Shown here in pieces: positions 3,866 to 50,335 of a DNA stretch of 64,000 nt; position 1 is the first letter of the stretch; each line of letters opens with the position of its first letter. The position numbers were made by a program, and so were the translations under genes. The notes under the pieces were generated by a model. That model was not told the DNA's origin. It made no database searches and saw only the letters and a program-made list of their open reading frames with translations. This stretch comes from Pseudomonas silesiensis (lineage in GTDB: Bacteria > Pseudomonadota > Gammaproteobacteria > Pseudomonadales > Pseudomonadaceae), in NCBI RefSeq assembly GCF_001661075.1, contig NZ_CP014870.1:3802501-3866500 (forward strand), given 5' to 3'.

Positions 3866-3949
3866 GCGGGCCCTCCGGTGCGTCCACTGTCGATCGACTA
3901 CACTCTGAGCGCTATCAGGCGATAGCAGCCTTCAGGCCCAGAGCAGTCA

Positions 3950-4738
3950 ATGCCGCCCACTAACGTTAGCCGAATGTCGCGCACCCTGGTGTCTCTCGTC
4001 GTCATCGTCGCAGCGCTGTACCTGGTGCTCTGTGTGGCGCTGTTCGTGTTCCAGCGCGCGCTTATCTATTTCCCGCAACCACGGGCCCTCGACGCTTCGG
4101 CAGCGCTGCTCACCTTGTCGGTTGACGACGCGCAGGTGCTGGTCACCGTGCGCCCCCGGGACGGCGCCGAGGCGTTGATCTATTTCGGCGGCAATGCCGA
4201 GGATGTGTCCCGTAACCTGCCCGGATTCGCCCGGGCCTTCCCTGACCATGCGCTCTACCTGATGCACTACCGGGGCTACGGCGGCAGTTCCGGCTCGCCC
4301 TCCGAAGAGGCGATCCAGCGCGATGCCCTGGCCCTGTTCGACCAGGTCTACGCCACGCACCGGCATATCGCCGTGGTCGGTCGCAGCCTGGGCTCCGGGG
4401 TCGCCGTGCGCCTCGCCAGCCAGCGACCGGCGGCGCGCCTGGTGCTGATCACGCCGTACAACAGTCTCGCAGAACTCGGGGCCAGGCTGTACCCGATGTT
4501 CCCGGTGAAGTGGCTGCTCAAGGACAACTTCGACTCCTGGAAATACGCCGCTCGTATCACAGTGCCGACGCTATTGATCGCGGCCGAGCACGACGAAGTG
4601 ATACCGCGTTCCAGTACCGAGCAACTCTACCGACACTTCGCCGACGGCGTGGCAACGATACGGGTCATACCAGGTGTCGGGCATAATTCAATTTCCGAAA
4701 GTCCCGACTATCTCAAACTGCTAAACAGCGGATTGTGA
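3950..4738 (+). CDS. Membrane-anchored alpha/beta hydrolase
   Basis: 262 residues: one N-terminal transmembrane segment (about residues 12-34), then an alpha/beta hydrolase of the ABHD17/YfhR-like type. Catalytic triad candidates are S146 in GRSLG (GxSxG), D215 in EHDEVIP and H245 in GVGHN; HYRGYGGSSG at 106-115 is the family oxyanion-region signature. Probably faces the periplasm and acts on an ester or thioester. An alternative start at ATG 3974 would lose only eight residues. The gene is followed by an AT-rich gap before the polysaccharide operon and shows no coupling to it. Substrate unknown. Confidence 0.82.
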   Translation: MPPTNVSRMSRTLVSLVVIVAALYLVLCVALFVFQRALIYFPQPRALDASAALLTLSVDDAQVLVTVRPRDGAEALIYFGGNAEDVSRNLPGFARAFPDHALYLMHYRGYGGSSGSPSEEAIQRDALALFDQVYATHRHIAVVGRSLGSGVAVRLASQRPAARLVLITPYNSLAELGARLYPMFPVKWLLKDNFDSWKYAARITVPTLLIAAEHDEVIPRSSTEQLYRHFADGVATIRVIPGVGHNSISESPDYLKLLNSGL

Positions 4739-5251
4739 ACACACCCATCTTTAGATGGAACTTTTTATCACTACCCAAACAACTACTAAAATCTCCATCA
4801 CATAACATGACAATATACAGGCGCCATTATTATGACCTATTGGCACTGCCTGATAAATTCCGAACGACAAGATAAAACTTGACAAATTCATATAAATCGA
4901 TGAATGGCATTAAAATAAAATATCGTTACAAATCATAGACTAATACTACTAACCTGCAGTAATATCTAGAAATAAAAAACAATTATTCGCGACTCACATT
5001 ATCTCGAAAAGTTTCAGTTATTAAATTAATAAAAAAACTTCACATAACCTTTGCCCTTATCGCCATTGATGTTAATAATCGCGCCGCTTTCGGACAGTCA
5101 CGCAACTTGCCCTCTAACTTTTAGTGATCGGCAAGTCTCTCTCGTATCACTCCGACCCTTACCACTCTCAACTATCGCAAGTTGATCCAGGCCCCAATCA
5201 TGCCTGGCTCGACTGATATGCGGCGCACTAGAACTGCGCAAGGAAGGCATC
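4739..5251. promoter_or_regulatory. AT-rich leader upstream of the polysaccharide operon
   Basis: About 500 bases without a convincing gene, clearly richer in A/T than the flanks, especially 4740-5045. A TTGACA hexamer at 4879-4884 could be a -35 element but no good -10 box follows at standard spacing. The region precedes the NGR-like operon (wecB onward) and probably holds its promoter, regulator sites and a long leader RNA. No clear terminator or palindromic operator was found by eye. Confidence 0.4.
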
Positions 5252-6448
5252 ATCGTTCGCCATCATTCACCGATCAGGATCCTCTCGATTTTCGGCACTC
5301 GTCCGGAAGCCATCAAGATGGCCCCCCTGGTCAAGGCTCTCGCTGCCGAGCCCGGCATTCATTCGCAGATCTGCGTCACTGGCCAACACCAAAGCATGCT
5401 TAAACAGGTGCTGGATCTGTTCGACTTGAAGGCCGATTACACCCTTGATGTCATGACCCCCAAGCAGACCCTGAACTCGCTGACCGCGGCGTTATACGCA
5501 GCGATCGACCCGGTGCTGGACATGACCCGGCCGGATCGGGTGCTGGTGCATGGCGATACGACCTCGGCCATGGTCGCGGCGATGGCGTCCTTTCACCGAC
5601 GCATTCCCGTGGGCCACGTCGAAGCCGGCTTGCGTACCGGTGATATCTACAGCCCGTGGCCGGAGGAAATGAACCGGCGCTGCATTGACCTGGGGGCGGA
5701 TCTGCTGTTTGCGCCGACCTGTGAATCCCGCGACAACCTGCTGGGTGAACGCCTGCAAGGGAAGACGCTGGTGACCGGCAATACCGTGATCGACGCCTTG
5801 CAACTGACGGCCAGACGCATCGAACAGAACCCGGCGCTGCGAGACAGCCTGGACCGGCAGTTCGCGTTCCTGCAGCCCGGGCGCAAGGTGTTGCTGGTGA
5901 CCGGCCATCGTCGGGAAAACTTCGGCGACGGCTTCCTGGATATCTGCAAGGCCCTGCGCCACCTGGCGCGGCGCGGGGATATCCAGATCGTCTACCCGGT
6001 GCATCTGAACCCCAATGTGCTGGGCCCGGTAACTGAACAACTGGGCGACTTGCCCAACGTGCACTTGATCGAACCCCTCGATTACCTGGCGTTCGTGCGC
6101 CTGATGCAGCGTGCCCACGTGATTCTCACCGACTCCGGTGGCGTGCAGGAAGAAGCGCCCTCCCTGGGCAAACCGGTGCTGGTGATGCGTGACGTCACCG
6201 AACGCCCGGAAGCCGTGGCCGCGGGCACCGTGCGGCTGGTCGGGACTGCACCGGCTTCGATCATCCAGGGGGTCAACGCCTTGTTCGATGACGATCTGTT
6301 ATGGCGCCGAACGGCCCAGGCGGCCAACCCTTACGGCGATGGCAAGGCCAGTGCCCGCATCGTCGACGCCCTGCTGGGCCGCCCGGTCGATGAGTTCGCC
6401 GTGAATCGCCCGCCCGGACAGCGGCAACACGCCCGTGCCGTACCGTAA
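5252..6448 (+). CDS. wecB: UDP-N-acetylglucosamine 2-epimerase (non-hydrolysing)
   Basis: Converts UDP-GlcNAc to UDP-ManNAc in the cytoplasm. Family motifs: IFGTRPEAIKMAPL at the N-terminus, VHGDTTS, GHVEAGLRTGD, PEEMNRR, VTGHRRENFG and LTDSGGVQEEAP. The essential N-terminal IFGTRPEAIK segment (from 5288) is in frame but lies upstream of the first ATG (5318). The frame is open back to a TGA at 5183-5185 without any ATG, GTG or TTG. A ribosome-like AAGGAAGG at 5240-5247 points to an ATC start at 5252 or 5249, or a sequence change in the start codon. First gene of the operon; UDP-ManNAc would supply the NfrB synthase, as in the E. coli NGR system. Function secure, start uncertain. Confidence 0.88.
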   Translation: MVRHHSPIRILSIFGTRPEAIKMAPLVKALAAEPGIHSQICVTGQHQSMLKQVLDLFDLKADYTLDVMTPKQTLNSLTAALYAAIDPVLDMTRPDRVLVHGDTTSAMVAAMASFHRRIPVGHVEAGLRTGDIYSPWPEEMNRRCIDLGADLLFAPTCESRDNLLGERLQGKTLVTGNTVIDALQLTARRIEQNPALRDSLDRQFAFLQPGRKVLLVTGHRRENFGDGFLDICKALRHLARRGDIQIVYPVHLNPNVLGPVTEQLGDLPNVHLIEPLDYLAFVRLMQRAHVILTDSGGVQEEAPSLGKPVLVMRDVTERPEAVAAGTVRLVGTAPASIIQGVNALFDDDLLWRRTAQAANPYGDGKASARIVDALLGRPVDEFAVNRPPGQRQHARAVP

Positions 6449-6518
6449 AAAAGAATCACTCGGTGTTCACCTCTTTGTAACCCGCTCGCCCCCTCTTACC
6501 TGCTCGAGATCTGCCTGA

Positions 6519-8732
6519 ATGAAGTCTTCCGTTGCCCTCCATACGGGTGCGCTCAGCGCCCTTGCCTGTGGCGTGAGCCTGCTAGCGCTCATGCCCGCCT
6601 TTGCCCTGGCGGCGGACAGCCCGCTCACCCAGGCGATCAACCGGCTCAACGCCGATACCCGGCAGGAGCGCGAAATCCGCTTGAGCGACCTGGGGATCGA
6701 CGCACCGATCATCCTCGGCTCCACCGACGCCCGACGCGAACTGTACCTGCCGGTGCCCGCCGGTGTGCCACTGACGGATGCCACGCTGAATTTCGACGCC
6801 AGCTACCTCAATGGCGAGGGTGGCCGCAATACGTTGCTGCTGTCGCTGGACGGCTATCCGGTTCGCGCCGAAGGGCTCAGCGAAGCCCAGGGCGATGCCA
6901 GCGCCACTTTGGGCGTGGACAAGAAAGCGCGGGACAGCGGCTCACTGCGCCTGGGCATTGCCTGGTCGTCGATCGTGTCCAGGGTGCTGTGCGAAGACGA
7001 ACGCGCCATCGGCAACGTTCTACGTATCGAGCCCGCCACCCGCCTCAATTACAGCTACGACGCCAGCCAGCTACACGACGTCGGCGCCGCCTGGACAGCG
7101 TTGCCGGGCAAACCGGGGATCATGGTCGCACCGGGCACCCTGTCCGCCGACAGCTATGACGCGGCCTGGCGCCTGGGTGTGGCCCTGGAGCGCATTGGCA
7201 AGCACAGTCGCATCCTGCCCTTCCCTGCCCTGCAAGACAGCGTTGACCTCAACGGCCTGCGCATCCCCGCTGAACTGCTGGCGATTCCGGCGTTCGCCAG
7301 CCTCAACGGCAAAGGCACGCACGTTCTGGCGGAGCCGGCGCAAATCGGCGCGCTATTGATGCTGGGGCAGACACCGAACGTCCAGGCGGACCTGGCCGTC
7401 AACGATCCGCAACTGCTCAAGGCCGTCAATGAGTCACTGGACGCGCTGCAGCGCCAGATCCAGGGCCTCGACGCCTCGGCAGCCACCGCCTTCACGCAAT
7501 GGCGTGAGCGGCATATCAATGCAGGTCTGGCCGCCACCGGAACGGACAATGTGCGCCTGGCATTGCTCGGTACACGACCGGTACTGATGATCGCGCCCCA
7601 GGCCACCGGCAAGGCGCTGGCCCTGTTCAGTTCAGCCTGGAACACCTTGGCCCGCAGCCGCCAATTGACGGTCAGCGAAGCACAGCTGCCGTTGAGCGCC
7701 GACGGTCGCGTGGCCTTGTCGCGCCTGGGCGGCAATCCCGGCGCCATTGACGTATTGGCCAAGTCCGACTGGAGCACCTCGTTCCCCTTGGGCAGTGTGG
7801 CCTATGACGGTCGCCTGCCGGTCAAGGCGGTGATCGATGTGTCTGCCGCACCCGGCGCCTCGGACACCGCGCCGGTGGCCTCGCTGTTCCTCAACGACTA
7901 CCTGATTGGCGCGCAACAGCTGGTGGCCAATGGGGAAAAGCAGCGCATCGAAGCGTCTGTCCCGCGCTACGCCCTGGGCTCGAAGAACGTGTTGCGGGTG
8001 TCGTTCCAGCGCCAGCCGGTCAGCGACCGCTGCCTGGAAACACCCCAGGCGTTCCCGGTCTCGGTGCTGCCAACCAGTCACATCGTGCTGGAAAAAACCG
8101 CCCTGGATAACGACTTCTCCGGCATGGCCGCGCGCTTTGCCATGGACGCGCAGATCCTCGTGCCACAAGCCTATCTCGAGCATCCGGCGAGCAGCTTGCC
8201 ACAAGTGATCTCGGTGGCTGATGCCGCCGGCGTTTCGCCGCTGCGGGCACAGCTGAACGTCAGTGCCGACCCCAAGGCGTCGGTCGCGCCGGACAAGGCC
8301 TTCCTTGCCTTCGAGCTGCCGATCAAGGACAGCAAGGAATCGGTGCAGGTCGATGAGCAGGGTCGCCTGCGCATCAATCACAAGGATCAGGTGCTGCTAG
8401 ACGTGCATCCCCTCAACCACCTGGCCTCGTTGCAAGTGGTGATTGCCGGCGGCCAGCACGGCCTGGTCTACCGCGCCCTGGGCGCCGACGCACCGCGCTT
8501 CGCCCGGCAGATTCTGCTGACCCGCGGCGACGTGGCCATCCTCGGTGACAAGGGTGCACTGACCACCTTCAACACTCAGGACCCGAGCGGCAGCCAACTG
8601 ATCGACAACGAAGAACCCAAGGGGCTGGACGCCTGGCGCAAACCGTCGTGGCTGTGGCTGATTCCCGGCGGCATCCTGTTGGTCCTCATCCTGTTGCTGG
8701 CCGGCCGTAACGCCCGTCGCAATCGCCAGTAA
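6519..8732 (+). CDS. BcsB-like periplasmic subunit of polysaccharide synthase
   Basis: 737 residues: Sec signal peptide (cleavage near ALAADS, residue 32), a large periplasmic part with BcsB-like features (IILGSTDARRELYLPVPAG with jelly-roll repeats, VSRVLCEDERAIGNVL, VLRVSFQRQPVSDRCLE), and a single C-terminal transmembrane helix (WLWLIPGGILLVLILLLAG) followed by a basic tail. BcsB anchors to the cellulose synthase BcsA and guides the emerging glycan. Here the gene lies between wecB and the NfrB-like synthase (12-base gap), so it is probably the periplasmic partner of NfrB. No BcsA, BcsC or BcsZ is present. Its pairing with NfrB is inference; the E. coli NGR pathway has no described BcsB. 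Confidence 0.8.
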   Translation: MKSSVALHTGALSALACGVSLLALMPAFALAADSPLTQAINRLNADTRQEREIRLSDLGIDAPIILGSTDARRELYLPVPAGVPLTDATLNFDASYLNGEGGRNTLLLSLDGYPVRAEGLSEAQGDASATLGVDKKARDSGSLRLGIAWSSIVSRVLCEDERAIGNVLRIEPATRLNYSYDASQLHDVGAAWTALPGKPGIMVAPGTLSADSYDAAWRLGVALERIGKHSRILPFPALQDSVDLNGLRIPAELLAIPAFASLNGKGTHVLAEPAQIGALLMLGQTPNVQADLAVNDPQLLKAVNESLDALQRQIQGLDASAATAFTQWRERHINAGLAATGTDNVRLALLGTRPVLMIAPQATGKALALFSSAWNTLARSRQLTVSEAQLPLSADGRVALSRLGGNPGAIDVLAKSDWSTSFPLGSVAYDGRLPVKAVIDVSAAPGASDTAPVASLFLNDYLIGAQQLVANGEKQRIEASVPRYALGSKNVLRVSFQRQPVSDRCLETPQAFPVSVLPTSHIVLEKTALDNDFSGMAARFAMDAQILVPQAYLEHPASSLPQVISVADAAGVSPLRAQLNVSADPKASVAPDKAFLAFELPIKDSKESVQVDEQGRLRINHKDQVLLDVHPLNHLASLQVVIAGGQHGLVYRALGADAPRFARQILLTRGDVAILGDKGALTTFNTQDPSGSQLIDNEEPKGLDAWRKPSWLWLIPGGILLVLILLLAGRNARRNRQ

Positions 8733-8744
8733 CGGAAACCTTCG

Positions 8745-10859
8745 ATGACCTCGCTTTATTGGCCCTATTGGCTGGCCCACTACTACAGCTTCCTGGAGAT
8801 CTCGACCATTGTGGTCGCGGTGCTGATCCTGATCTCCGGCCTGGACGATCTGTTCATCGACCTGTGGTACTGGTCGCGCCGCCTGTTCCGCAAACTCACC
8901 GCGGAGCGCAAATACCGGCCGCTGACGGCCGAGCAGTTGCTGGCGCGGGATGAACAGCCCCTGGCGATCATGGTCCCGGCCTGGCTGGAATATGACGTGA
9001 TCGCACCGATGATCGAGAACATGGTGTCGACCCTGGATTACCAGAACTATGTGGTCTTCGTCGGCACCTACATCAACGACCAGCGCACCATCGATGAAGT
9101 GGAACGCATGCGCCGGCGCTACAAGCAGCTGCACCGGGTGGAAGTGCCGCACGCCGGCCCGACCTGCAAGGCCGACTGCCTGAATTGGGTGATCCAGGCC
9201 ATCTTCCTCCATGAGCAAACCCATGGCATGACCTTCGCCGGCGTGGTGATGCACGACAGCGAAGACGTGCTGCACCCGATGGAACTGCGCCTGTTCAACT
9301 ATTTGCTGCCACGCAAGGACATGATCCAGCTGCCGGTGGTGTCACTGGAACGCAACTGGTACGAGTGGGTGGCCGGCACCTACATGGACGAATTCGCCGA
9401 ATGGCACGGCAAGGATCTGGTGGTGCGTGAAAGCATGACCGATACCGTGCCATCGGCCGGTGTCGGCACCTGTTTCTCCCATCGAGCCCTGCGCGTGCTG
9501 GCCGGGAAAAACCGGAACCAGCCATTCAACACCGACAGTCTGACCGAGGACTACGACGTCGGCGCGCGCCTGGCCAAGGTCGGCATGAACGCGATCTTCG
9601 TGCAGTTCCCGGTGCAGTTTCGGGTGTTGCGCAAATCATGGTTCCGCAAGCCTTACGAATCGACCCTGAAAATGCCGTTGTGCGTGCGCGAATTGTTCCC
9701 GGACACCTTCCGCACCGCGTTCCGCCAGAAAGCGCGCTGGACCCTGGGCATCGGGTTGCAAGGCTGGGAGCAAATGGGCTGGAGCGGCTCGCTGGCCAAC
9801 CGGTATCTGCTGTTTCGTGACCGCAAAGGCCTGGTGACGGCGTTCGTCAGCATCATCGCCTATGTCATCCTGGCGCAGTTGCTGGGCCTGATCATCCTGC
9901 GCCAGAGCGGCCTGTGGGACGTGAGTTTCCCGACGCCCTTCGAAAGCAATGGTTTTATCGCGTACTTGCTGCTCGCCAACGGTATCGCCCTGGCCTGGCG
10001 GATCGCGCACCGCTGCTATTTCACCACCGTGCTGTACGGCTGGCAGCATGGCTTGCTGTCCATCCCGCGGATGGTCGTGGGCAATTTCGTCAACTTCATG
10101 GCAGCGTCCCGTGCCTGGCGCATGTTCCTGGTCGGCAAGGTGCTCAACCGCAAGCTGGTCTGGGACAAGACCATGCACGACTTCCCGTCCACCGATCTGG
10201 TCGCAGCCGCACCGCGCAAGCTGGGCAGTGTGTTGCTGTCCTGGCAGGCGATCAACGACACCGACCTGCAAAGCGCCCTGGCGGAACAGAAAACCCGGCA
10301 CATGCCGTTGGGGCGGATTCTGCTCAGCAACGGTTGGCTGGACGACGAAACCCTGGCCGAAGCCATCGCCTTCCAGAACGACTTGCCGCGGGTGTTCGAC
10401 GTAGCGGCCAAGGCACGGGACTCGACGCTGAAGCTGGACGATGAATTCGCCCTGCGCTGGCGCGTGGTGCCGCTGGGCTTGAATGCCCAGGGCCGTGCGC
10501 AAGTGGCCGTGGCCAACCCGTTGCCGGCCGAAGGTCTGCGACAGGTCAGCGATGAGTTGGGCAGCGTGCCGGTGCAGCTGATTGCCCGGGAAAGCGAAAT
10601 CGTCGCGCGATTGCGTCATCTGAAAGTGCGCGAAGGCCAGTCGGTTCCCGACGCCGGGGCACCACTGCTGGGCGACCTGCTGATCGAAATGGGCCTGATG
10701 GATCGCGACGTGTTCAGCCGCGCCATGCTGCAGTACCGCCCGCAATATCACGGCCGCATCGGCGACTACCTGGTCGACAGCGGCGTGCTGCCTCGCGCCA
10801 CCATCGAAAAGGCCGTCGCGCGTCAGCACAGCCACTATCCCGAGGAGCTTCCGGCATGA
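8745..10859 (+). CDS. nfrB: NfrB-like polysaccharide synthase with tandem MshEN c-di-GMP-binding regions
   Basis: 704 residues. An N-terminal transmembrane helix is followed by a GT2 glycosyltransferase domain with D171/D174 in MHDSEDVLH, TEDYD at 267-271 (catalytic Asp) and the processive-synthase motif QKARW (QxxRW) at 328-332, then further membrane helices. The C-terminus has MshEN-type motifs: 24-residue units starting at K492 and P521 with a 5-residue spacer, and a second pair starting near L641 and R671. MshEN regions bind c-di-GMP; in E. coli NfrB this activates synthesis of a ManNAc glycan used by phage N4. The ATG of nfrA overlaps the stop (ATGA). Should polymerise UDP-ManNAc from WecB at the inner membrane. 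Confidence 0.9.
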   Translation: MTSLYWPYWLAHYYSFLEISTIVVAVLILISGLDDLFIDLWYWSRRLFRKLTAERKYRPLTAEQLLARDEQPLAIMVPAWLEYDVIAPMIENMVSTLDYQNYVVFVGTYINDQRTIDEVERMRRRYKQLHRVEVPHAGPTCKADCLNWVIQAIFLHEQTHGMTFAGVVMHDSEDVLHPMELRLFNYLLPRKDMIQLPVVSLERNWYEWVAGTYMDEFAEWHGKDLVVRESMTDTVPSAGVGTCFSHRALRVLAGKNRNQPFNTDSLTEDYDVGARLAKVGMNAIFVQFPVQFRVLRKSWFRKPYESTLKMPLCVRELFPDTFRTAFRQKARWTLGIGLQGWEQMGWSGSLANRYLLFRDRKGLVTAFVSIIAYVILAQLLGLIILRQSGLWDVSFPTPFESNGFIAYLLLANGIALAWRIAHRCYFTTVLYGWQHGLLSIPRMVVGNFVNFMAASRAWRMFLVGKVLNRKLVWDKTMHDFPSTDLVAAAPRKLGSVLLSWQAINDTDLQSALAEQKTRHMPLGRILLSNGWLDDETLAEAIAFQNDLPRVFDVAAKARDSTLKLDDEFALRWRVVPLGLNAQGRAQVAVANPLPAEGLRQVSDELGSVPVQLIARESEIVARLRHLKVREGQSVPDAGAPLLGDLLIEMGLMDRDVFSRAMLQYRPQYHGRIGDYLVDSGVLPRATIEKAVARQHSHYPEELPA

Positions 10860-13399
10860 ACCGCCCTTTCCTGACCCTCATGGCCACGGGGCTGAGCCTG
10901 ATGCCCGGGTTGGTTCATGGCGAAACGCTGCCGTTGCCGTTGACCGGGCCGGCCTATGTGGCCGCCAACGAAGCGTACAGCGCCTACGAGCGCAAAGATT
11001 ACGACCTGGCCATCGCCAAGGCCCGCGAAGCATTGCGCCAGCGGGCAGATATCACCCGTTTGAACACGCTGATCGGGCTGGCACAGCGTGACAAGGACTT
11101 GCGTGATCATCCCAAACGCTATCCGCAGTCCCGCCAGGCCCCGGGCTTCAGTGCAGCGGCCCGGGCCTTCAAGGCCTATGATCGCGATAACTTCGGCCTC
11201 GCTGCCCAGGCAGCCCGCCAAGCCATTGCACAGGCACCCGGGCGCATGGATTACCGGTTGCTGTTGATCGAATCCTTGCAGCGCCAACCCGATCTGCTGG
11301 CAGCGGATCAAGCCACCACCCAGGCCTTGGCCGTGTTCCCGGACGACGATATGTTGTTGATGCGCCGCGAGGCGATCCGTCGTCAATTGGCGGCACCGCT
11401 GGCCGTTCAGGGCTATCGCGCCCTGGAACTGGGCCAGGTGTCACTGGCCGTGGACCAGGCCAGGAAAGCCGTGGCCTGGGCACCGGAAATCGGCGCCAAT
11501 CAGCAACTGCTGATCAGTGCCCTGCTCGCCGCCAGGGACTATCCCGGCGCCGAACAGGCCGCGTCGGGGGCATTGGCCCGGGACGATGGCGAAATCGCGC
11601 CATGGATTCTGCGCAGCTATGCCCTTGATCGTCAGGGCAAAATCCAGGCGGCCGAGGCAGACCTGAATCAGGCACTGGCCATCGATGGCCTGCTGGAGGC
11701 GGAAGTCCGCGACCTGCGTTTCTTCGCCGCCGACGCCGCACTGGCCCATGGCGAGCCACAACAGGCGCTCAAGCATCTGCAGCCACTGGCCGACGATGAC
11801 AGCGGCGAAGTGGCCCGTCGGCGAACCGCCGCGCGAATGGCGCTGCGACAGAAAAACCATGGTCTGGACACTGTCGCCGATTTTCCGGCACCCGCCTTGA
11901 ATTGTCAGGAAACCGCCTTCGGCCTGGTGTGCGATATCTGGCCGGGCAACCAGCGCGACGGCGGCACCGACATGGCCGGCCAGGCGTACGCGTCCCTGGC
12001 CCGCAAGGACGCTGCGACCGCGGTGGCCCTGGCGAATCAAGCCATCGCCCGCGCGCCGCGTAATCCGGCGTACCGGCGCCTGCTGGTCAGCGCCCTGAGC
12101 GAGCAGAAACGCGTGCCTGAAGCCATCGCAGCGGCCAGCGAAGGCCTCAGGATCACCGGCGATGACGCCCGGCTGCTGGCCCAGCGCGGCCGCCTGCGTC
12201 AACGATCCGGTGACGATGCCGGGGCACGCCAGGACTTCACCCGGGCCTTGGCCTTGGGCAGCCTGCCCGCTTACGAAGAAGCCAGTCTGTACGCCGCCAT
12301 CGGCCAACGCCGTACCGCGCGCGAACGGCTGCAACAAGCGCGGGACACCGGCGAACTGGAGTCCATGAGCGCGCTGCAGATCGCTTATCTGTCGGTCCAG
12401 GCCGGCGACGATGACGCGGCCCACGGGTCGTTTCGCAAGGCCGACGCCGATACCCGGCTCACGCCGACGGCAACCCAGGACGCCGCCTACACCGCCATGC
12501 GGGTCAATGACGATGAGCAAGCCGTCAGCTACTTCAAGCGCGTGATCGACGCACAAGGTACCGGTGACCTCGAGATGCCCGCGCAGCAGCTGTTCGACAC
12601 CCGTCGCGCAGTGGCCGATGTGTCGCGCACCTGGGGCCTGACCAACACCACCAGTTATCGGGGCAACAGTTCCAGCAGCGGCCTGAGTTCAGCCCCGACC
12701 AGCGGCAGCAACAGCAATGACAACCTGCAGAACAGCACCGAATTGTCCTGGCGTCCCCTGGGCTATCGCAACGCACGTTTTGTCGAACTCTACGGACGTA
12801 TCACCGACACCCTGTGGAGCAAGAACAGCGATTCGGACACCGGTCTGGACGCCCTGCAAGGCGCCGTGGGTGTCAGGGTCAAACCCTTCACGGCGCTGAA
12901 CGTAATGGCCGCCGTCGAGCGCACATTCCCCCTGGGATCGTCGGACGTCGATGGCGACTGGCTGGTGCGCCTGGGCTATGGCTCCAGCGTCGGCACCGAC
13001 CTGCGGGTGGATACCTCCAGCTGGTGGACTTCGCAGTTGTTTGCCGAGGCCGGTCATTACATCAATGACTCGCGCGATTACTTCAACAGCGAATGGCAGG
13101 TGGGCCGCAGTTATGCCATCGGCGGCACGGGTTCGCGCTGGGTGAGCTTCCCCCATGTCGTGGCCGCGTTTGACTACGACTCCAAAATGCACAGCGAGAC
13201 CACAGCGGACGGCAGTACCGACACATCATCCGGCAAGGCTGGAGGCCTCGGGATCGGCAACAACGTGCGTTACTGGTTCCGCGAAGACACCTACAACGCC
13301 CCCCGCTCCTATGTGGACTTTTCCCTGCAGTACCGTGTGAAAGTGCTGGGCGATGAGCGCGCCAAAGGCGTGTTCGCGCGCCTGACTTACTCCTATTGA
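10856..13399 (+). CDS. nfrA: NfrA-like outer-membrane polysaccharide exporter
   Basis: 847 residues: Sec signal (cleavage near VHGET, about residue 23), a long alpha-helical TPR-rich periplasmic part (about 35-560) and a C-terminal beta-barrel matching the NfrA C-terminal domain, ending in the aromatic LTYSY expected for BAM-dependent insertion. NfrA is the outer-membrane receptor of phage N4 and the export port of the NGR glycan; E. coli NfrA is somewhat longer (about 990). A low-complexity Ser/Gly/Asn linker (about residues 600-625) precedes the barrel. The start overlaps the nfrB stop by 4 bases. It combines scaffold and pore in one chain, as BcsC and PgaA do. Confidence 0.87.
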   Translation: MNRPFLTLMATGLSLMPGLVHGETLPLPLTGPAYVAANEAYSAYERKDYDLAIAKAREALRQRADITRLNTLIGLAQRDKDLRDHPKRYPQSRQAPGFSAAARAFKAYDRDNFGLAAQAARQAIAQAPGRMDYRLLLIESLQRQPDLLAADQATTQALAVFPDDDMLLMRREAIRRQLAAPLAVQGYRALELGQVSLAVDQARKAVAWAPEIGANQQLLISALLAARDYPGAEQAASGALARDDGEIAPWILRSYALDRQGKIQAAEADLNQALAIDGLLEAEVRDLRFFAADAALAHGEPQQALKHLQPLADDDSGEVARRRTAARMALRQKNHGLDTVADFPAPALNCQETAFGLVCDIWPGNQRDGGTDMAGQAYASLARKDAATAVALANQAIARAPRNPAYRRLLVSALSEQKRVPEAIAAASEGLRITGDDARLLAQRGRLRQRSGDDAGARQDFTRALALGSLPAYEEASLYAAIGQRRTARERLQQARDTGELESMSALQIAYLSVQAGDDDAAHGSFRKADADTRLTPTATQDAAYTAMRVNDDEQAVSYFKRVIDAQGTGDLEMPAQQLFDTRRAVADVSRTWGLTNTTSYRGNSSSSGLSSAPTSGSNSNDNLQNSTELSWRPLGYRNARFVELYGRITDTLWSKNSDSDTGLDALQGAVGVRVKPFTALNVMAAVERTFPLGSSDVDGDWLVRLGYGSSVGTDLRVDTSSWWTSQLFAEAGHYINDSRDYFNSEWQVGRSYAIGGTGSRWVSFPHVVAAFDYDSKMHSETTADGSTDTSSGKAGGLGIGNNVRYWFREDTYNAPRSYVDFSLQYRVKVLGDERAKGVFARLTYSY

Positions 13400-13407
13400 G
13401 GACTGAC

Positions 13408-14061
13408 ATGAACGTTAGCGTTTTTTTGTGGCTGGGTCTTGGCCTGGTCTCGACAGGGGCACAAGCCGCCCCTGAAATTGCCCGGCTGTACGCGCCCACA
13501 CTGCCCGAAGGTTCCGCCTGGGTACGGGTGGTCAATCCCGCCGATACTTCCATGCAGGTCCGGGTAGGCCAAGGCGCGACCCTGGCCCTTTCCGCCCAGG
13601 CCGACGTGGCCAGCCCGTTCCAGGTCGTGGACTCGCAACAGCCGATTGACGTCACCGTCAATGGTCGCGAGATCAAAGGCCTGACCGCACCGAAAGGCGC
13701 CTGGGTTACGCTGATTCTCGACAGCAACCCGGCACGGGCCCCACGGCTGGTCATCGATCCGCCACTACGCGGTAAAGACCTGCGCGCCGAACTCAACTTT
13801 TATAACTTGAGCAGCGGCTGTGAACAGGCCGAGATCCAGCTGGCCAATGGCGCCCCGGTATTCAAGCAGGTGCCGTTCAACGGACAAGCCCAGCGCACGA
13901 TCAACCCGGTGCAGGCGACCTTGGTTGCCAGCTGCAACCAGCACCGCAGCCTGCCGATGAAACTGGCGCCCTTCAAGGCCGGTGATCGCTATAGCCTGTT
14001 CCTGATCGGTTCCCCTCAGGCGCCACGTTTGATTGGCCTTGTCGACCAGGCTGCGCCATGA
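13408..14061 (+). CDS. AlgF-like periplasmic O-acetylation protein
   Basis: 217 residues from ATG 13408, preferred because GAGGA lies 5 bases upstream. Signal peptide (about residues 1-20, ending GAQAAP), then two beta-sandwich-like halves resembling AlgF: ARLYAPTLPEGSAWVRVVNP, a FQVV...VTVNGREIKG stretch, LVIDPPLRGKDLRAELNFYN and REINPV-like TINPVQATLV. AlgF takes part in alginate O-acetylation with AlgI and AlgJ; WssG does so for acetylated cellulose. It lies between nfrA and an AlgJ/X-like gene, so the exported glycan is probably O-acetylated. No AlgI-type MBOAT is in the window. Confidence 0.75.
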   Translation: MNVSVFLWLGLGLVSTGAQAAPEIARLYAPTLPEGSAWVRVVNPADTSMQVRVGQGATLALSAQADVASPFQVVDSQQPIDVTVNGREIKGLTAPKGAWVTLILDSNPARAPRLVIDPPLRGKDLRAELNFYNLSSGCEQAEIQLANGAPVFKQVPFNGQAQRTINPVQATLVASCNQHRSLPMKLAPFKAGDRYSLFLIGSPQAPRLIGLVDQAAP

Positions 14062-15047
14062 TCCGCTCATTCGAACCGCTGCGCTTTATCCATCGCTCGT
14101 CGTTTCCCGGCATCGTCGCCGGCCTGCTGCTAGGCTTGTCGGGCACCGGCGTGCAAGCGGCATCGGCGGTGATCACCGGTGATGGCGGCTGGCTGTTCCC
14201 GGCCTGGGAAAGCCTGAGCAAGGTCGATAACCCCGGCACCACCCGCAACGTTGCGCTGGTGAAACAACTTCAGCAGCAACTTGCGCGCCAACACATCGGG
14301 TTAATCGTGTTGGTGGTGCCGATGAAGGCACCGTTTTATGCCCGGCGCCTGCCCGCCGGTCAGCCTTTGAGCGCCGCCGTCATGCAGCGCTATGACCACT
14401 TGCAGGTTGACCTGACCCAAGCGGGCCTGACCACGCTGAACATCAAGCCGATTCTGCAACGGACCGAGCAAGGCCAGCAGACGGCGTTTTACCGCGCCGA
14501 TTATCACTGGACCGCCTGGAGTGCCGAAAACACCGCCGACGCCACGGCGCAACTGATCTCGCAGCGATATGGCCTGTCGGGTGAAACCGGCGGCGGCGCG
14601 GCGCTGGGCGAGTGGTTCGACCGACGCGCGTTCGGTGACCTGGCGAGCAACTTCCTGCCGGCGATCAAGCGCAAAGCCATTGGTCGCGATATCTACACCG
14701 TTCGCCATCAGGCAGAGAAAGACCTGCTGATCGACGACGTGCCAGCCCCGGTCCAAGTGATCGGCAACAGTTTTGTCCAGCCGTACCTGGGTTTTACCCA
14801 GAAGCTGTCCAACGCTCTGGACCGACCCGTCGCACTGACCTGGAACCCCGGCGATGTCGGCCCGTGGGCTACGCTGCTGCAATACCTGGAGTCGCCGGAT
14901 TTTGCGCAACACAAGCCGCAAGTCATCGTCTGGCAATTCAATGAAGGCCAGTTCCACCTAGGTCCTGATGCAGCCGCCAACTGGAATGCAAAAGGCGTCA
15001 TCCCGCCGGGCCAATGGCATCAGCGCATCGAGAAGGCACTGCAGTGA
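14058..15047 (+). CDS. AlgJ/AlgX-like SGNH acetyltransferase
   Basis: 329 residues with an N-terminal signal or anchor (about 18-36) and an SGNH-hydrolase-like domain of the AlgJ/AlgX/WssI group. Catalytic candidates are D148 and H150 in ADYHWTAW (the DxHW signature) and S238 in IGNSFVQPY. Such enzymes move acetyl groups onto polymer hydroxyls in the periplasm. The start overlaps the AlgF-like gene (ATGA) and the end overlaps the next gene (GTGA). Together with the AlgF-like protein this gives an acetylation module, but the inner-membrane acetyl donor (AlgI) must be encoded elsewhere. Confidence 0.8.
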   Translation: MIRSFEPLRFIHRSSFPGIVAGLLLGLSGTGVQAASAVITGDGGWLFPAWESLSKVDNPGTTRNVALVKQLQQQLARQHIGLIVLVVPMKAPFYARRLPAGQPLSAAVMQRYDHLQVDLTQAGLTTLNIKPILQRTEQGQQTAFYRADYHWTAWSAENTADATAQLISQRYGLSGETGGGAALGEWFDRRAFGDLASNFLPAIKRKAIGRDIYTVRHQAEKDLLIDDVPAPVQVIGNSFVQPYLGFTQKLSNALDRPVALTWNPGDVGPWATLLQYLESPDFAQHKPQVIVWQFNEGQFHLGPDAAANWNAKGVIPPGQWHQRIEKALQ

Positions 15048-15907
15048 GGATTTTCGGCTACACCGCCAGTCGCGCAGCCCTTGCGGCCCTGTCGCTCGCC
15101 GTCCTCCTCGGCGCGGGTGTCGGCTTGCTCTACGTGACGAGTACCAAGGCCCTGGCACCGGGGATCGTCGGCATCGTCTGGCAGCCGGACAACAAGACCG
15201 TCGGCATCAATGGCAACTGGGAAAAACTGGGCGCTCGGGAACTGTTGGTGCAATGGACGGTGGTCGACGACCAGGCCTTCATTCCCGACAGCGGCTTGCC
15301 CAGCGTCCCTGTCCTGCCCGATTGGGCGCGCATCGCCAAGGCGCCCTGGGCCCAGGATGTCATCCTCGGGCTGGCCGGTTATTTCAGCGAGAACCGCTCA
15401 CGGGACAACATCGAACAACTGGCGGCGGTCTCGGAACGCATCGCCAGGTTGCCGACGCCACTGCACGTCACCGGCTGGTATTTCCCGGCCGAAGTCGACC
15501 CCAGCTGGACCCGCGCCAAGGAACTGCCGGCGCTGCTGGCCAAGCTGCCGCGCCCGCTGTGGATCAGTGTCTACGACGGCGCCAACATCGGCCCTGCGGC
15601 CACGGCCGACTGGCTCAAGCAATGGCTGCCGGATGACATCGGCGTGTTCTTTCAGGATGGCGTCGGCGTTTATGCGCGCACGGCACCGGTGGCCCGAACC
15701 TATGCCGACGCCCTGGCCGACCGTCTGGGCAAGGAGCGTGTGCGCATTATCGTCGAAGCCTTCCGCCCCAACTTCGGCGGCGGCTTCCGCTCCGCGACTG
15801 CGGCCGAACTCAAGACGCAGTTAGCCGCGTATGACGACTATCCGCTGTACCTGTTCGACGGTCCGCACTACGTGACACCCGAACTGGTGGAGCAATTGCA
15901 GCCCTGA
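15044..15907 (+). CDS. Putative periplasmic glycoside hydrolase (DUF4434-like; candidate YbcH counterpart)
   Basis: 287 residues from GTG 15044, which overlaps the preceding stop (GTGA). N-terminal hydrophobic signal or anchor (about 10-32), then a TIM-barrel-like domain with VGIVWQPDNK, ELLVQWTVVDD, TGWYFPAEVDPSW (E150 a candidate acid) and WISVYDGANIGP, resembling DUF4434-type putative glycosidases. Last gene of the operon; export operons often end with a hydrolase that trims the polymer (compare BcsZ, PelA, AlgL). The E. coli NGR locus also has a small signal-bearing protein, YbcH, next to nfrA. Equivalence with YbcH is a guess from position and size. A REPIN follows the stop. Confidence 0.62.
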   Translation: MRIFGYTASRAALAALSLAVLLGAGVGLLYVTSTKALAPGIVGIVWQPDNKTVGINGNWEKLGARELLVQWTVVDDQAFIPDSGLPSVPVLPDWARIAKAPWAQDVILGLAGYFSENRSRDNIEQLAAVSERIARLPTPLHVTGWYFPAEVDPSWTRAKELPALLAKLPRPLWISVYDGANIGPAATADWLKQWLPDDIGVFFQDGVGVYARTAPVARTYADALADRLGKERVRIIVEAFRPNFGGGFRSATAAELKTQLAAYDDYPLYLFDGPHYVTPELVEQLQP

Positions 15908-30019: not shown

Positions 30020-30103
30020 ATGAAAAACAACAACAATAGCGTCCCGTTCATCTCCCCACTCGGCGATGGACAGCCTCAAGCGCGTATTTTGGAGGCATCA
30101 TGA
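30020..30103 (+). CDS. 27-residue ORF between the M19-like and BCCT genes
   Basis: ATG 30020 with GTGAGGA upstream opens a 27-codon frame, MKNNNNSVPFISPLGDGQPQ..., whose TGA overlaps the BCCT start codon (ATGA at 30100). The GGAGG that serves the BCCT gene lies inside this ORF. It looks like a coupling or leader peptide; alternatively it is a short conserved protein. No match is known to me. Support is the good ribosome site and the exact overlap. Confidence 0.5.
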   Translation: MKNNNNSVPFISPLGDGQPQARILEAS

Positions 30104-31652
30104 AAACCACCAGCACCTTGCAAGTCGACAGCCCGCCGCTGAACCTTGCGCCGCCGAAGAAAGACATCGACTGGCCGCTGTTTCTCATCAGTGGCGGCTT
30201 CCTCGGCGCGTTCCTGATCGCGGCGCTGATCGACATCGATGGCGTGTCGCTGCTGGTGAACACGCTGTTCGCCTGGTCGACCCGGTTCTTCGGGCTCTAC
30301 TGGCAGATTCTGATGCTGTTGACCTTCGCCGTGAGCCTGTTCATCTGCTTCAGCAAATGCGGGCGAGTCCGGCTCGGCGGTGTCGACCAGCGCCCCGACA
30401 CCAGCACCTTCAACTGGATCGCGGTGATCATGTGCGCCCTGCTCGCCGGCGGTGGCGCCTTCTGGGCCGCGGCCGAACCGATGATGCACTTCGCAAGCCC
30501 GCCCCCACTGTTCGCCGGGGTGCAAGCGCACACCGAAGCGGCAGCGCATGCGGCGCTCGCGCAGTCCTTCGTGCACTGGGGTTTCCTCGCCTGGGCCGTG
30601 CTGGGCAGCCTGCTGTCCATCGTGTTGATGCACCTGCATTACGACAAGGGCCTGCCACTGGCACCGCGTACGCTGCTGTATCCGCTGCTCGGCGAGCGCG
30701 CGCTCAAAGGCCCGATCGGCACCCTGGCGACGCCACTTCCATCATCGCCGTGGTCGCCGGCACCATCGGCCCGATCGGCTTCCTCGGCCTGCAAATCAGC
30801 AGTGCGTTGCATTCGGTCTGGGGCATCCCCAATGACCTGACGGTGCAGTCGATCACCATTGTCCTGGTCACGGTGATGTACACCACCTCCTGCCTGGTCG
30901 GGCTCAAGGGCATCCGCTTCGTCAGCGAGATCAATGTCTGGCTGATGATCGGCCTGGCGATCTTCATGGTGGCGTTCGGGCCGACCATGTTCATCCTCGG
31001 CGGCTTCCCGTCGGCGTTCGCCCTGCACCTGGAACAGTTCATCCCGATGACGCTGTTTCGCGCCGATCCGAAATGGCTCGACTGGTGGACGGTATTCTAC
31101 TGGGGCTGGTTCATCGGCTATGCACCGATGGTCGCGCTCTATGTGGCGAAGATCTCCCGTGGCCGGACCATCCGCGAAGTGATCATGACCCTGTCGATTA
31201 TCGCTCCCATCGTGACCATGTTCTGGTTCACCGTGGTCGGCGGCACCGGCATCGGCCTGGAACTGCAAACCCCCGGCATCGTCACGGCCAATGGCGCACA
31301 ACCCGAAGCGCTGCTGTTGGGGGTGACGCAAAACCTTCCCCTGGGTGGCCTGGTCTCCGCACTGTTCCTGTTCCTGAGCTTCATCTCGGTCGCCACCAAC
31401 GGCGATGCCATGGCGTTCACCGTGGCGATGGCCATGTCGAGCAATGACAAGCCGAAAAAATGGCTGAGGGCCTTCTGGGCCATCGGCATGGGCCTGGCCG
31501 CCGTGGTGCTGATCACCATCGGTTCCGGCGGGGTCACGGCCCTGCAATCCTTTATCGTGATTACCGCGGTGCCGGTGTCGCTGTTGATTCTGCCGTCGCT
31601 CTGGGATGCGCTGCGAATCGCCCGGCACATGGCTCGCGAACAGGCTGTCTGA
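30100..31652 (+). pseudogene. BCCT-family transporter, broken by a one-base frameshift
   Basis: The two halves read as a complete betaine/carnitine/choline transporter. From ATG 30100 (TTGGAGGCATC upstream) the frame gives the first helices up to LKGPIGTLA. Near 30727-30730 the reading must shift to continue DATSIIAVVAGTIGPIGFLG. The text ACCCTGGCGACGCC lacks one base relative to the expected ACC CTG GC(N) GAC GCC. The rest, including TFRAD-like TLFRADPKWLDWWTVFYWGW and PMVALYVAKISRGRTIREV, is intact to the TGA at 31650. BCCT proteins import quaternary amines with Na+ or H+. Either a real loss of the importer or a sequencing error in a GC-rich stretch. Confidence 0.85.
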
Positions 31653-31675
31653 TGATGAATAGTTCAGGAATCGCA

Positions 31676-33397
31676 ATGATGTCTCCGTCCCGCACCGACG
31701 CCGAACCACAACCGACCCTGCGCCCCGCGGCGCAGGTCATGGACCTGGATCGGCTGGGCAGTCACTTTCAAAGCCGGCTGAGTTTCGTGCGCAGCAGCAT
31801 GCGGCGCATGATGAACGAGCAGTGGCGCATCCAGCGCACCTGCTTCGACCTGGATGCCGAAGGTTTTGGCACTGCCATCTACCGCATCGACACCGCCAGT
31901 GCGCATTACCACTGCGTGATTTTCTCGAATGACCTGCCGCCGGAAAAACGCAGCGACCGGGTGATCGCCGATCAGTGGGATGTCAGCTTCGTCCTGCTCG
32001 CCGGGGATGTCGATGAGCAGCAGCTGGCCGATCTGCGGCGCAACGTGCCCTTGCAGGAAGCCGGGCGCTTCGATGCCCGGGTGCTGGTGCTGTCACGGGC
32101 CAACCGCAGCCTGCGCAACTTCGAGCGTTTCCTCGGGGCGCTGGCCGAAGGTTGCCAGCCAGACCCGCGGCAACTTGCCGAGGTGGGCTACCTGTATCGC
32201 ACCACTGCCGTCTACGGCAACGGCAAGTTCGGCATCGCCGACTTCAGTTGCCTGCAAGGTAATGCCGACTTCACCCAACCCTTCAGCGCGCAGATGTTTA
32301 CCGTGTACCTGCTGCGGCACTTCAGCATCGAGCAAATCGAACACATGGCCCGGGCGCGCAATCCGCAACGGGCGGTCGGGCTGGACATCGCCCTGCAACG
32401 CTACCTCGGGGTCGGCAATTCCACGGGGCTGGGCATGGCGCCGTTCCTGATCAATCACCCGCAGCTGGTCAATCAATGGCTGTGGGCCAGGGAAACCGCC
32501 TTGGCCCGGGTCTTGGCGCACCCTGCCGATCTGCCCCGGGTGCAACGTTTCCAGGCGCTGCTGCAACGTGCTTGCCAGCACCTGGCGCAAACCCGCACCG
32601 ACGACCCGCGGCAAAGCACAATCGACCGGCAGACCCTGGCCGAGCTTGGGCAACTGGCCGAGTGGTTCGACGGGCAGCCGGTCAGTACCGACCTGTGGCC
32701 ACGGGTGCAGGCCTGGGCCGAGCGGCACGGCGGTAACGGTTGCCAGGAATTGCTGGTGAGCCTGCTGCTGGAGCTGTACCCCGAACAGGTCGATCCGCTG
32801 GCCGAACAGATGTCGGTCAAGGAAGGCTTTCGACTCAATGCCGAGATGCCGCTGGATGAGTTGTGCGATCTGATAGAGAGCCGCTACCGCTGGGCACTCG
32901 ACTATGACTTGAGCGCCGCCGAGGCCAACCATTTCTTCTGGTATCGCTCGGCGGAAAAGGAAGAACCCCGCCTGGGCGAGCGCGCCATGGTACCGGGTGC
33001 CGAGAAGGAAATGCAGTTGGGCATCGCACACAACATTCAACGCTGCCACCGCGCCTTGTTGGTCTATCGGGAACAGCATCCGCAGCAACTGACTGCGCAC
33101 TTCCTGCTGGCCCAGCCGCAGTTCAAGGGCACCGTCTGCCGCTTGCAGGGCATGGACCGCTGCGCCTATGGGGAAATCCGCGCCAACCTGATGGACCGCG
33201 GCATGCTGCCGATCCACCTGCTGCGTTGCAAGTTGGCGTTCTTCGGGGCCGGCAAGTTCGATCCCAAGTCCAGTCGGTGGGTGCGCATCACCTTGTTCCA
33301 GGGCGCGCCGCTGGTCAGCGAGATTGGCCAACCCTTCGACGATGACTGGAATTTCGCCGTCATGCCCCCACTGGCAACCGCTGCCGGAGAACTCTGA
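31676..33397 (+). CDS. Large protein of unknown function in the BCCT/ALDH operon
   Basis: 573 residues from ATG 31676 (CAGGAA 5 bases upstream); ATG 31652, which overlaps the BCCT stop, is an alternative. No signal peptide or membrane helix. Readable stretches include RLSFVRSSMRRMMNEQWRIQ, YHCVIFSNDLPPEKRSDRVI, LYRTTAVYGNGKFGIADF and WALDYDLSAAEANHFFWYRS. I do not recognise a family. Its place between the transporter and the DUF3726-like/RidA genes argues for an enzyme or assembly protein acting on the imported compound. Confidence 0.75.
   Translation: MMSPSRTDAEPQPTLRPAAQVMDLDRLGSHFQSRLSFVRSSMRRMMNEQWRIQRTCFDLDAEGFGTAIYRIDTASAHYHCVIFSNDLPPEKRSDRVIADQWDVSFVLLAGDVDEQQLADLRRNVPLQEAGRFDARVLVLSRANRSLRNFERFLGALAEGCQPDPRQLAEVGYLYRTTAVYGNGKFGIADFSCLQGNADFTQPFSAQMFTVYLLRHFSIEQIEHMARARNPQRAVGLDIALQRYLGVGNSTGLGMAPFLINHPQLVNQWLWARETALARVLAHPADLPRVQRFQALLQRACQHLAQTRTDDPRQSTIDRQTLAELGQLAEWFDGQPVSTDLWPRVQAWAERHGGNGCQELLVSLLLELYPEQVDPLAEQMSVKEGFRLNAEMPLDELCDLIESRYRWALDYDLSAAEANHFFWYRSAEKEEPRLGERAMVPGAEKEMQLGIAHNIQRCHRALLVYREQHPQQLTAHFLLAQPQFKGTVCRLQGMDRCAYGEIRANLMDRGMLPIHLLRCKLAFFGAGKFDPKSSRWVRITLFQGAPLVSEIGQPFDDDWNFAVMPPLATAAGEL

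Positions 33398-47489: not shown

Positions 47490-50335
<2,846 letters not shown>

Follow-up and report, generated by a model that had tools for sequence, protein, structure and literature searches.

An NGR/PGR-type exopolysaccharide operon in Pseudomonas silesiensis with a probable conserved AUC start in wecB

Exopolysaccharide clusters of the N4 glycan receptor (NGR)/PGR kind have been published for the genera Achromobacter, Simplicispira and Acinetobacter, the last backed by genetic tests, and for Pseudomonas soli (PMC8669472, PMC8669469, PMC12507263). The seven-gene operon considered here, at positions 5252 to 15907 of a 64,000-nucleotide stretch (the window) of the single-contig, 6.82-Mb genome of Pseudomonas silesiensis, very likely belongs to this NGR/PGR kind of synthase-dependent polysaccharide system. 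The first-pass annotation of the window had held that such an operon was not described as a unit; this does not stand, the kind being already published in those same three papers. The wecB gene that opens the operon is likely to be translated from an AUC codon.

The E. coli NfrBA–YbcH system resembles the window in having an NfrB with an MshEN domain, a YbcH homologue, the order nfrB-nfrA-ybcH and a dependence on WecB (PMC8669469, PMC8669472, in the portions seen); the C-terminal regions of the two NfrA proteins are weakly alike (23%). Unlike the window, the E. coli nfr locus has no annotated wecB, bcsB or alg gene, and E. coli wecB sits in the enterobacterial common antigen operon (PMC8669469, PMC8669472). 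In Achromobacter xylosoxidans, nfrA, nfrB and wecB are reported to cluster with genes for periplasmic O-acetyltransferases and a BcsB homologue (PMC8669472), all of which have counterparts here. From excerpts of PMC8669469, wecB-linked nfr operons are on record in Pseudomonas, and the nfr cluster of Simplicispira suum carries an alginate-type acetyltransferase complex as an insert, a further likeness. The Acinetobacter baumannii PGR shares BcsB, NfrB and WecB homologues and a PgaB-C-like protein with the window, and phage StAb3 needs this locus, as judged by escape mutants, a clean deletion, complementation and adsorption; it differs in a diguanylate-cyclase-like protein without GGDEF, and acetylation genes are unmentioned in the part of the report that was available (PMC12507263).

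All seven genes of the window operon are open frames on the + strand. ORF (open reading frame) and family searches bear out the single direction of transcription given by the first-pass annotation, and its spacings hold as well: 70 bases between wecB and the bcsB-like gene, 12 between the latter and nfrB, with overlaps or a short gap further on. wecB (5252..6448, counted from a putative AUC start at 5252–5254) encodes a UDP-GlcNAc 2-epimerase of 398 residues (TIGR00236, 428 bits; PF02350), the sole epimerase match of its kind in the genome (one wecB match). The bcsB-like gene (6519..8732) encodes a periplasmic, membrane-anchored subunit with a weak family match (PF03170, E 2.9e-6); nfrB (8745..10859) a GT2 synthase with a C-terminal MshEN domain, a c-di-GMP-binding type (NF012033, 1163 bits); and nfrA (10856..13399) a TPR protein with an NfrA C-terminal domain, the predicted outer-membrane exporter (PF13283, E 6.4e-59). 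They are followed by an algF-like gene (13408..14061; PF11182, E 1.4e-16), an algJ-like gene for an SGNH acetyltransferase (14058..15047; PF16822 (ALGX), E 8.4e-62; DYH and GNS motifs) and a ybcH homologue (15044..15907) for a TIM-barrel, glycoside-hydrolase-like DUF4434 protein with an N-terminal anchor (PF14488; NF007404 below its cut-off). The algF ORF is listed from TTG 13396, ATG 13408 being the more likely start; for ybcH, GTG 15044 appears more likely than ATG 15014.

NfrB matches NF012033, PF13632, PF05157 and, over two stretches, NF053729; HDSED, TED and QKARW are seen in its translation; and it is 39% identical to E. coli NfrB, whose model NF008411 it matches below the cut-off (653/1170 bits). 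The Pfam search gave no PilZ match on it, MshEN being present instead, and it is this domain (PF05157, NF053729) alone that points to the c-di-GMP control proposed in the first-pass annotation. Other pseudomonads are reported to have a diguanylate cyclase near such operons, and the entire window was therefore scanned by motif; no GGDEF-type match resulted, only three EAL-like strings. An NfrB with GT2 and MshEN, an NfrA-type exporter in the same operon and an available WecB are marks of the NGR/PGR kind, and all three are present here. A cellulose synthase (Bcs) system would instead combine a PilZ-bearing BcsA with BcsB, of which the BcsB-like fold alone is present; and of the Pga system for poly-N-acetylglucosamine, which would bring PgaC and a PgaB with a deacetylase and a C-terminal domain, there is a PgaB-C-like barrel by fold only, with no deacetylase family among the seven proteins in Pfam.

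Folds add to these assignments. The BcsB-like protein was modelled with AlphaFold (32 sequences, pLDDT 78), and the model's best matches in the PDB were 22 chains of cellulose synthase complexes, mostly BcsB (best E 9.6e-25, TM score 0.36–0.50), whereas a PDB search with the sequence gave no match; as modelled, the protein folds like BcsB. The DUF4434 protein is 27% identical to E. coli YbcH (E 9e-8), and the model built for it (24 sequences, pLDDT 91) shows a TIM barrel whose nearest structures are BT_0435 (TM score 0.60) and the glycoside hydrolase domain at the C-terminus of PgaB (TM score 0.50), which makes the protein a YbcH homologue with a predicted PgaB-C-like barrel. The first-pass annotation had treated YbcH and the DUF4434-like protein as two things; in this operon the DUF4434 protein is itself the homologue of YbcH. 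Its overall assignment, an NGR core with a BcsB-like subunit and an O-acetylation pair, is upheld by families, folds and synteny.

A search for this gene order across Pseudomonas genomes had been suggested with the first-pass annotation. In a scan that retained the best 80 of 368 loci by NfrB similarity, a non-random sample of 56 Pseudomonas and 24 other loci, matches to wecB, bcsB, nfrB, nfrA and ybcH stand in that order in 56/56 of the Pseudomonas loci, and the order wecB-bcsB-nfrB-nfrA recurs in 19 of the 24 others, several of which end at contig ends. The gene order is kept far beyond chance. Among 298 genomes of the genus, an NfrB of at least 81% identity over nearly the whole length occurs in 36, including the window genome; six carry one at 63–65% identity and 54 show a relative at 38–44%, the remaining matches being short. 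The closest named matches are from Pseudomonas lini and P. fluorescens PS833 (98% NfrB identity), and four genomes of this sample (G258, G261, G025 and G211) harbor two nfrB types.

Loci were fetched for 6/6 genomes of the 63–65% set, 10/54 of the 38–44% set and 13/36 of the set at or above 81%, plus G076, which is split at a contig end; the locus L120, split at a contig end, was excluded from the layout counts. Three layouts emerge. Layout A, that of the window, is wecB-bcsB-nfrB-nfrA-(algF-algJ)-ybcH. Layout B (6/6) is wecB-bcsB-nfrB (572–579 residues)-nfrA-algX-algX-algI, with no algF or ybcH match; in one such locus (L115) wecB and bcsB are each broken into two frames. The short NfrB proteins of layout B (L114–L119) match to about residue 549, part of the MshEN region being apparently missing. 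Layout C (10/10) has nfrB and nfrA with no bcsB match, wecB in nine, a YbcH match in nine and GGDEF in seven, and fits the Pseudomonas operons described in the available text of PMC8669469.

The start of wecB had been placed at 5252 before; the position is retained here, the codon at that position being ATC, which had gone unremarked. The open frame of the window's wecB has no ATG, GTG or TTG ahead of the N-terminal GTRPEAIK motif, which we take to be needed for WecB catalysis, and its first in-frame ATG (5318) lies 3' of the motif, so that a start there would remove it. The start was surveyed in 68 distinct loci out of 70 (exact duplicates L126 and L132 removed), located by the pattern GTRPE[A/G]IKMAP, which matched 70/70 and itself fixes most of the invariant residues scored. 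At the position properly spaced from the Shine–Dalgarno (SD) sequence, distinct Pseudomonas loci have ATC in 41/68, ATG in 26/68 and ATT in 1/68, counts in which near relatives are not independent; a near-cognate codon is thus found at the SD-spaced position across species. ATG is seen in one clade, to which loci of the P. syringae group belong, and ATC in the window's own. On a tree of NfrB and WecB built by a quick method (62 rows), the ATC label requires 3 changes as against 21.1 in shuffles; a supported group unites 30 ATC rows with a single ATG row, that of P. kilonensis. ATC also appears at a second place, in L081 on a long branch, and the ATT locus, L063, is basal. P. kilonensis (L051) and its sister P. 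brassicacearum (L074) differ at this codon, ATG in the former and ATC in the latter, within near-identical context; L124 shares the context of L051 and likewise carries ATG.

Several observations indicate that the frame is translated 5' of the first ATG, since the motif is present in 70/70 loci, codons change silently and the ratio of nonsynonymous to synonymous substitution rates (dN/dS) is low. The 12 residues from GTRPE onward are invariant in the 41 ATC loci, their codons varying silently, and the median dN/dS of wecB is 0.08 in 59 of 60 sampled ATC-class pairs (60 pairs per class, first 330 codons, unaligned, pairs with dS outside 0.05–2 dropped); one ATG-class pair gave 1.5, probably through an indel. 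In a codon table from −14 to −1 built on 39 equally spaced ATC loci, the codon preceding the start position varies (ATC, GTC, ACC), whereas that at the start position is constant in the ATC class. wecB begins with ATG in six layout B loci and in the nine layout C loci where it was found, and 22/22 listed non-Pseudomonas loci have, by eye, an in-frame ATG, GTG or TTG close 5' of the motif.

Beyond the kinship among the loci counted, a number of points weigh against initiation at AUC. ATC is the commonest isoleucine codon, so its invariance alone is weak evidence: of 13 internal isoleucine positions invariant in the ATC class, one is likewise ATC in 41/41. No ATG, GTG or TTG precedes GTRPE in the open frame of 6 of the 42 non-ATG loci, the window among them; the other 36 have one, the nearest 5–22 codons upstream; 11/42 have a start-like codon within eight codons upstream or after the ATC, and L036 also has one seven codons downstream. 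wecB might instead be translated from elsewhere, either from a TTG, CTG or ATG in the leader or from ATG 5318, the ATC being an ordinary internal or leader triplet. The codon at −6 from the ATC is CTG in 16/42, TTG in 7/42 and ATG in 2/42 loci; it is, however, not start-like in the remaining 17/42 (TGC, CCG, AAT, GTT, ACT) and falls in the 3' arm of a paired leader hairpin. ATG-class loci and the P. kilonensis/P. brassicacearum pair put the start at the ATC itself, and ATG 5318 would drop GTRPEAIK, which is kept in 70/70 loci (A or G at one place). Database annotation is divided: 333 wecB copies were found, and among the 120 listed, 38 begin at the ATC codon, against 44 that start after the motif and 38 elsewhere. 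Taken together, translation from another codon is improbable, and initiation at AUC, the most economical reading of these sequences, is likely.

Two of the database copies, P0004 and P0072, have their initial Met at the codon that is ATC in the loci matching them in sequence (L035 and L049), so this codon has been treated as a start by automatic annotation before. The idea that annotation had overlooked the ATC start was rejected, some database copies beginning exactly there. A published remark on an AUC start of wecB was not found in the open-licence PMC literature. Near-cognate starts have precedents: infC and pcnB start with AUU in E. coli. The window genome's infC (L145) has an SD sequence followed by ATT, with the next in-frame ATG six codons downstream, which is consistent with the known AUU start of infC. 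In Staphylococcus aureus, infC, cvfC1 and ccpN have near-cognate starts which, like that proposed for wecB, are rare, kept between species and preceded by an SD sequence, and which in reporters yield about 10% of AUG (PMC13009471, from an excerpt). wecB would differ from all of these in using AUC and not AUU or AUA, in being a sugar-nucleotide gene of a polysaccharide operon and in its occurrence in Pseudomonas.

Upstream of the start, on the same strand, a likely promoter at 5051..5079 (TTGCCC, 17, AATAAT; TGTTAATAAT at 5070–5079) matches the consensus and would imply a leader some 165 bases long; its TAATAAT block is present in 15/15 sequences shown, the window included. The block AAAAGTTTCA, at 5006–5015 upstream of the promoter, is identical in 14/15 of the sequences shown and is possibly an activator site or UP element. 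The leader contains two candidate hairpins, hairpin 1 at 5187..5207 (CCAGGC/GCCTGG; 82.3% of cells paired, 6/6 pairs with changes on both sides across the 68 loci) and hairpin 2 at 5223..5239 (GCGCA/TGCGC; 91.6% of cells paired, 2/5 pairs with changes on both sides). The latter abuts the SD sequence AAGGAAGG (5240..5247), a purine run found at the same place in the 42 listed non-ATG loci.

Over the 68 loci 86.6% of cells in both hairpins pair, compared with 11–46% when partners are slid, and 72 cells are double changes as against 25.9 (s.d. 4.0) in shuffles; the pairs were defined on the window itself, which favours them. Other tests speak against a structured leader. Of the five measures, two are hardly above their shuffled values, namely pairs with changes on both sides (8 versus 6.3, reached by 22/500 shuffles) and pair types (19 versus 17.3, reached by 81/500); RNAalifold on the 68 leaders returned no structure, and the predicted folding of the window's leader by itself is no stronger than that of shuffles (z −0.9). 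A search of Rfam over 3900–6600 at E up to 1 gave no match. That the AUC start and a structured leader together throttle WecB, and with it the supply of UDP-N-acetylmannosamine (UDP-ManNAc), is a plausible if tentative proposal.

The second distinctive feature is the O-acetylation pair. algF with one AlgJ-like gene occurs in 26 of the 56 Pseudomonas loci of the scan, always together and with an AlgI-like ORF in 0/26. algF occurs in 9 of the 24 other loci, all betaproteobacterial, and each of these nine has an AlgI match as well as another SGNH gene. The betaproteobacterial loci thus combine algF, algI and two SGNH genes where Pseudomonas has algF, one SGNH gene and no algI, and the alginate-type set of AlgI (a membrane-bound O-acyltransferase, MBOAT), AlgJ, AlgF and AlgX is not found together in the window locus; the first-pass annotation had not pointed out this gap. 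Of the two betaproteobacterial paralogues, the Pseudomonas AlgJ-like protein resembles one (for example, 426 bits against 264 for the two of L092 under a profile seeded from the window's gene). A description of an algF and AlgJ-like pair without algI was not found in the open-licence PMC literature. The pair also tracks the start codon of wecB, being present in 26/31 ATC loci, 1/25 ATG loci and 0/1 ATT loci, an association that may reflect shared ancestry only.

O-acetylation of the polymer, which these genes suggest, would require an acetyl exporter, and the operon has none. The only MBOAT match in the window genome is algI, in what reads as an alginate operon, which suggests that the acetyl supply is shared with it. 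The window's AlgJ-like protein is 30% identical to the ALGX-type protein encoded just after algI in this genome and 22% to the one before; from gene order (L113, by eye) we infer these to be AlgJ and AlgX, respectively. An AlgJ-like gene of at least 68% identity was found in 17 of the 36 genomes searched, the window genome included, and in 13 of these 17 carriers the sole MBOAT and the AlgJ-type protein are encoded about 1.5 kb apart (distances by eye). An MBOAT is present, however, in 36/36 relatives, including all 19 without the AlgJ-like gene, so the co-occurrence agrees with borrowed acetyl groups and cannot serve as a test of sharing. Sharing with the alginate AlgI is plausible, at about even odds. 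The pair may otherwise work without AlgI, its partner being a different acyl carrier protein, or it may serve as an esterase or in binding the chain, which would suit both the absence of an AlgI-like match from the operon (acyltransferase-3 proteins were not searched for) and the scope for re-use of AlgF and AlgJ-like proteins. The D-x-H and G-N-S motifs of the AlgJ-like protein are intact, however, and AlgJ/X-like genes accompany algI in the nine betaproteobacterial algF loci (motifs shown for five); we regard this alternative as a real possibility, somewhat short of even.

Gene identities and order, the BcsB-like and PgaB-C-like folds, the absence of algI, the conserved ATC and the hairpin pairing, taken from sequence, comparison or fold, support a scheme whose inferred steps are polymer chemistry, c-di-GMP binding, acetylation through AlgI, AUC initiation and throttling. 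WecB would make UDP-ManNAc, which NfrB would polymerise and move as a chain across the inner membrane upon binding of c-di-GMP to MshEN. The BcsB-like protein would guide the periplasmic passage of the chain, the AlgF/AlgJ-like pair would O-acetylate it with acetyl groups from the alginate AlgI, the YbcH-type barrel would bind or trim it, and NfrA would export it. UDP-ManNAc supply would be kept low by translation of wecB from the conserved AUC behind its structured leader. We assign a probability of roughly 0.72 to this explanation as a whole, that is, an NGR/PGR exopolysaccharide with AlgI-fed acetylation and AUC-throttled WecB.

The polymer presumably contains ManNAc, and the glycan possibly serves as a phage receptor in this species. 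A polymer that is not ManNAc-based, or a locus that is silent or decaying, would be compatible with the absence of any chemistry found for the window locus and with an AUC start that signals weak selection for expression. Against this, none of the seven frames is interrupted, purifying selection acts on wecB, and WecB is needed for phage infection through this type of receptor in E. coli (PMC8669469) and Acinetobacter (PMC12507263), according to the accessible text of both reports; we therefore hold this alternative to be improbable too.

Elsewhere in the window, an ORF of 246 residues at 30100–30840 matches positions 1–178 of the 485-position profile of a BCCT transporter and is possibly a truncated gene, and two ORFs at 31460–33397 (645 residues) and 45147–47591 (814 residues) have no Pfam match at E 0.01.

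The locus extends a known family of phage-receptor glycans into soil- and plant-associated Pseudomonas, in which at least three layouts occur within the genus. If the proposed start is correct, wecB would be a bacterial metabolic gene with a natural AUC start that is conserved, and the choice of start codon could set the dose of a phage receptor; if AlgI is shared, two exopolysaccharides usually treated as separate would be joined. A more far-reaching possibility, which we consider unlikely, is that, across a large Pseudomonas clade, an AUC valve on UDP-ManNAc sensitive to initiation factor 3 (IF3), together with c-di-GMP control of the synthase and acetyl groups borrowed from alginate, would couple phage sensitivity, alginate and the translation state of the cell.

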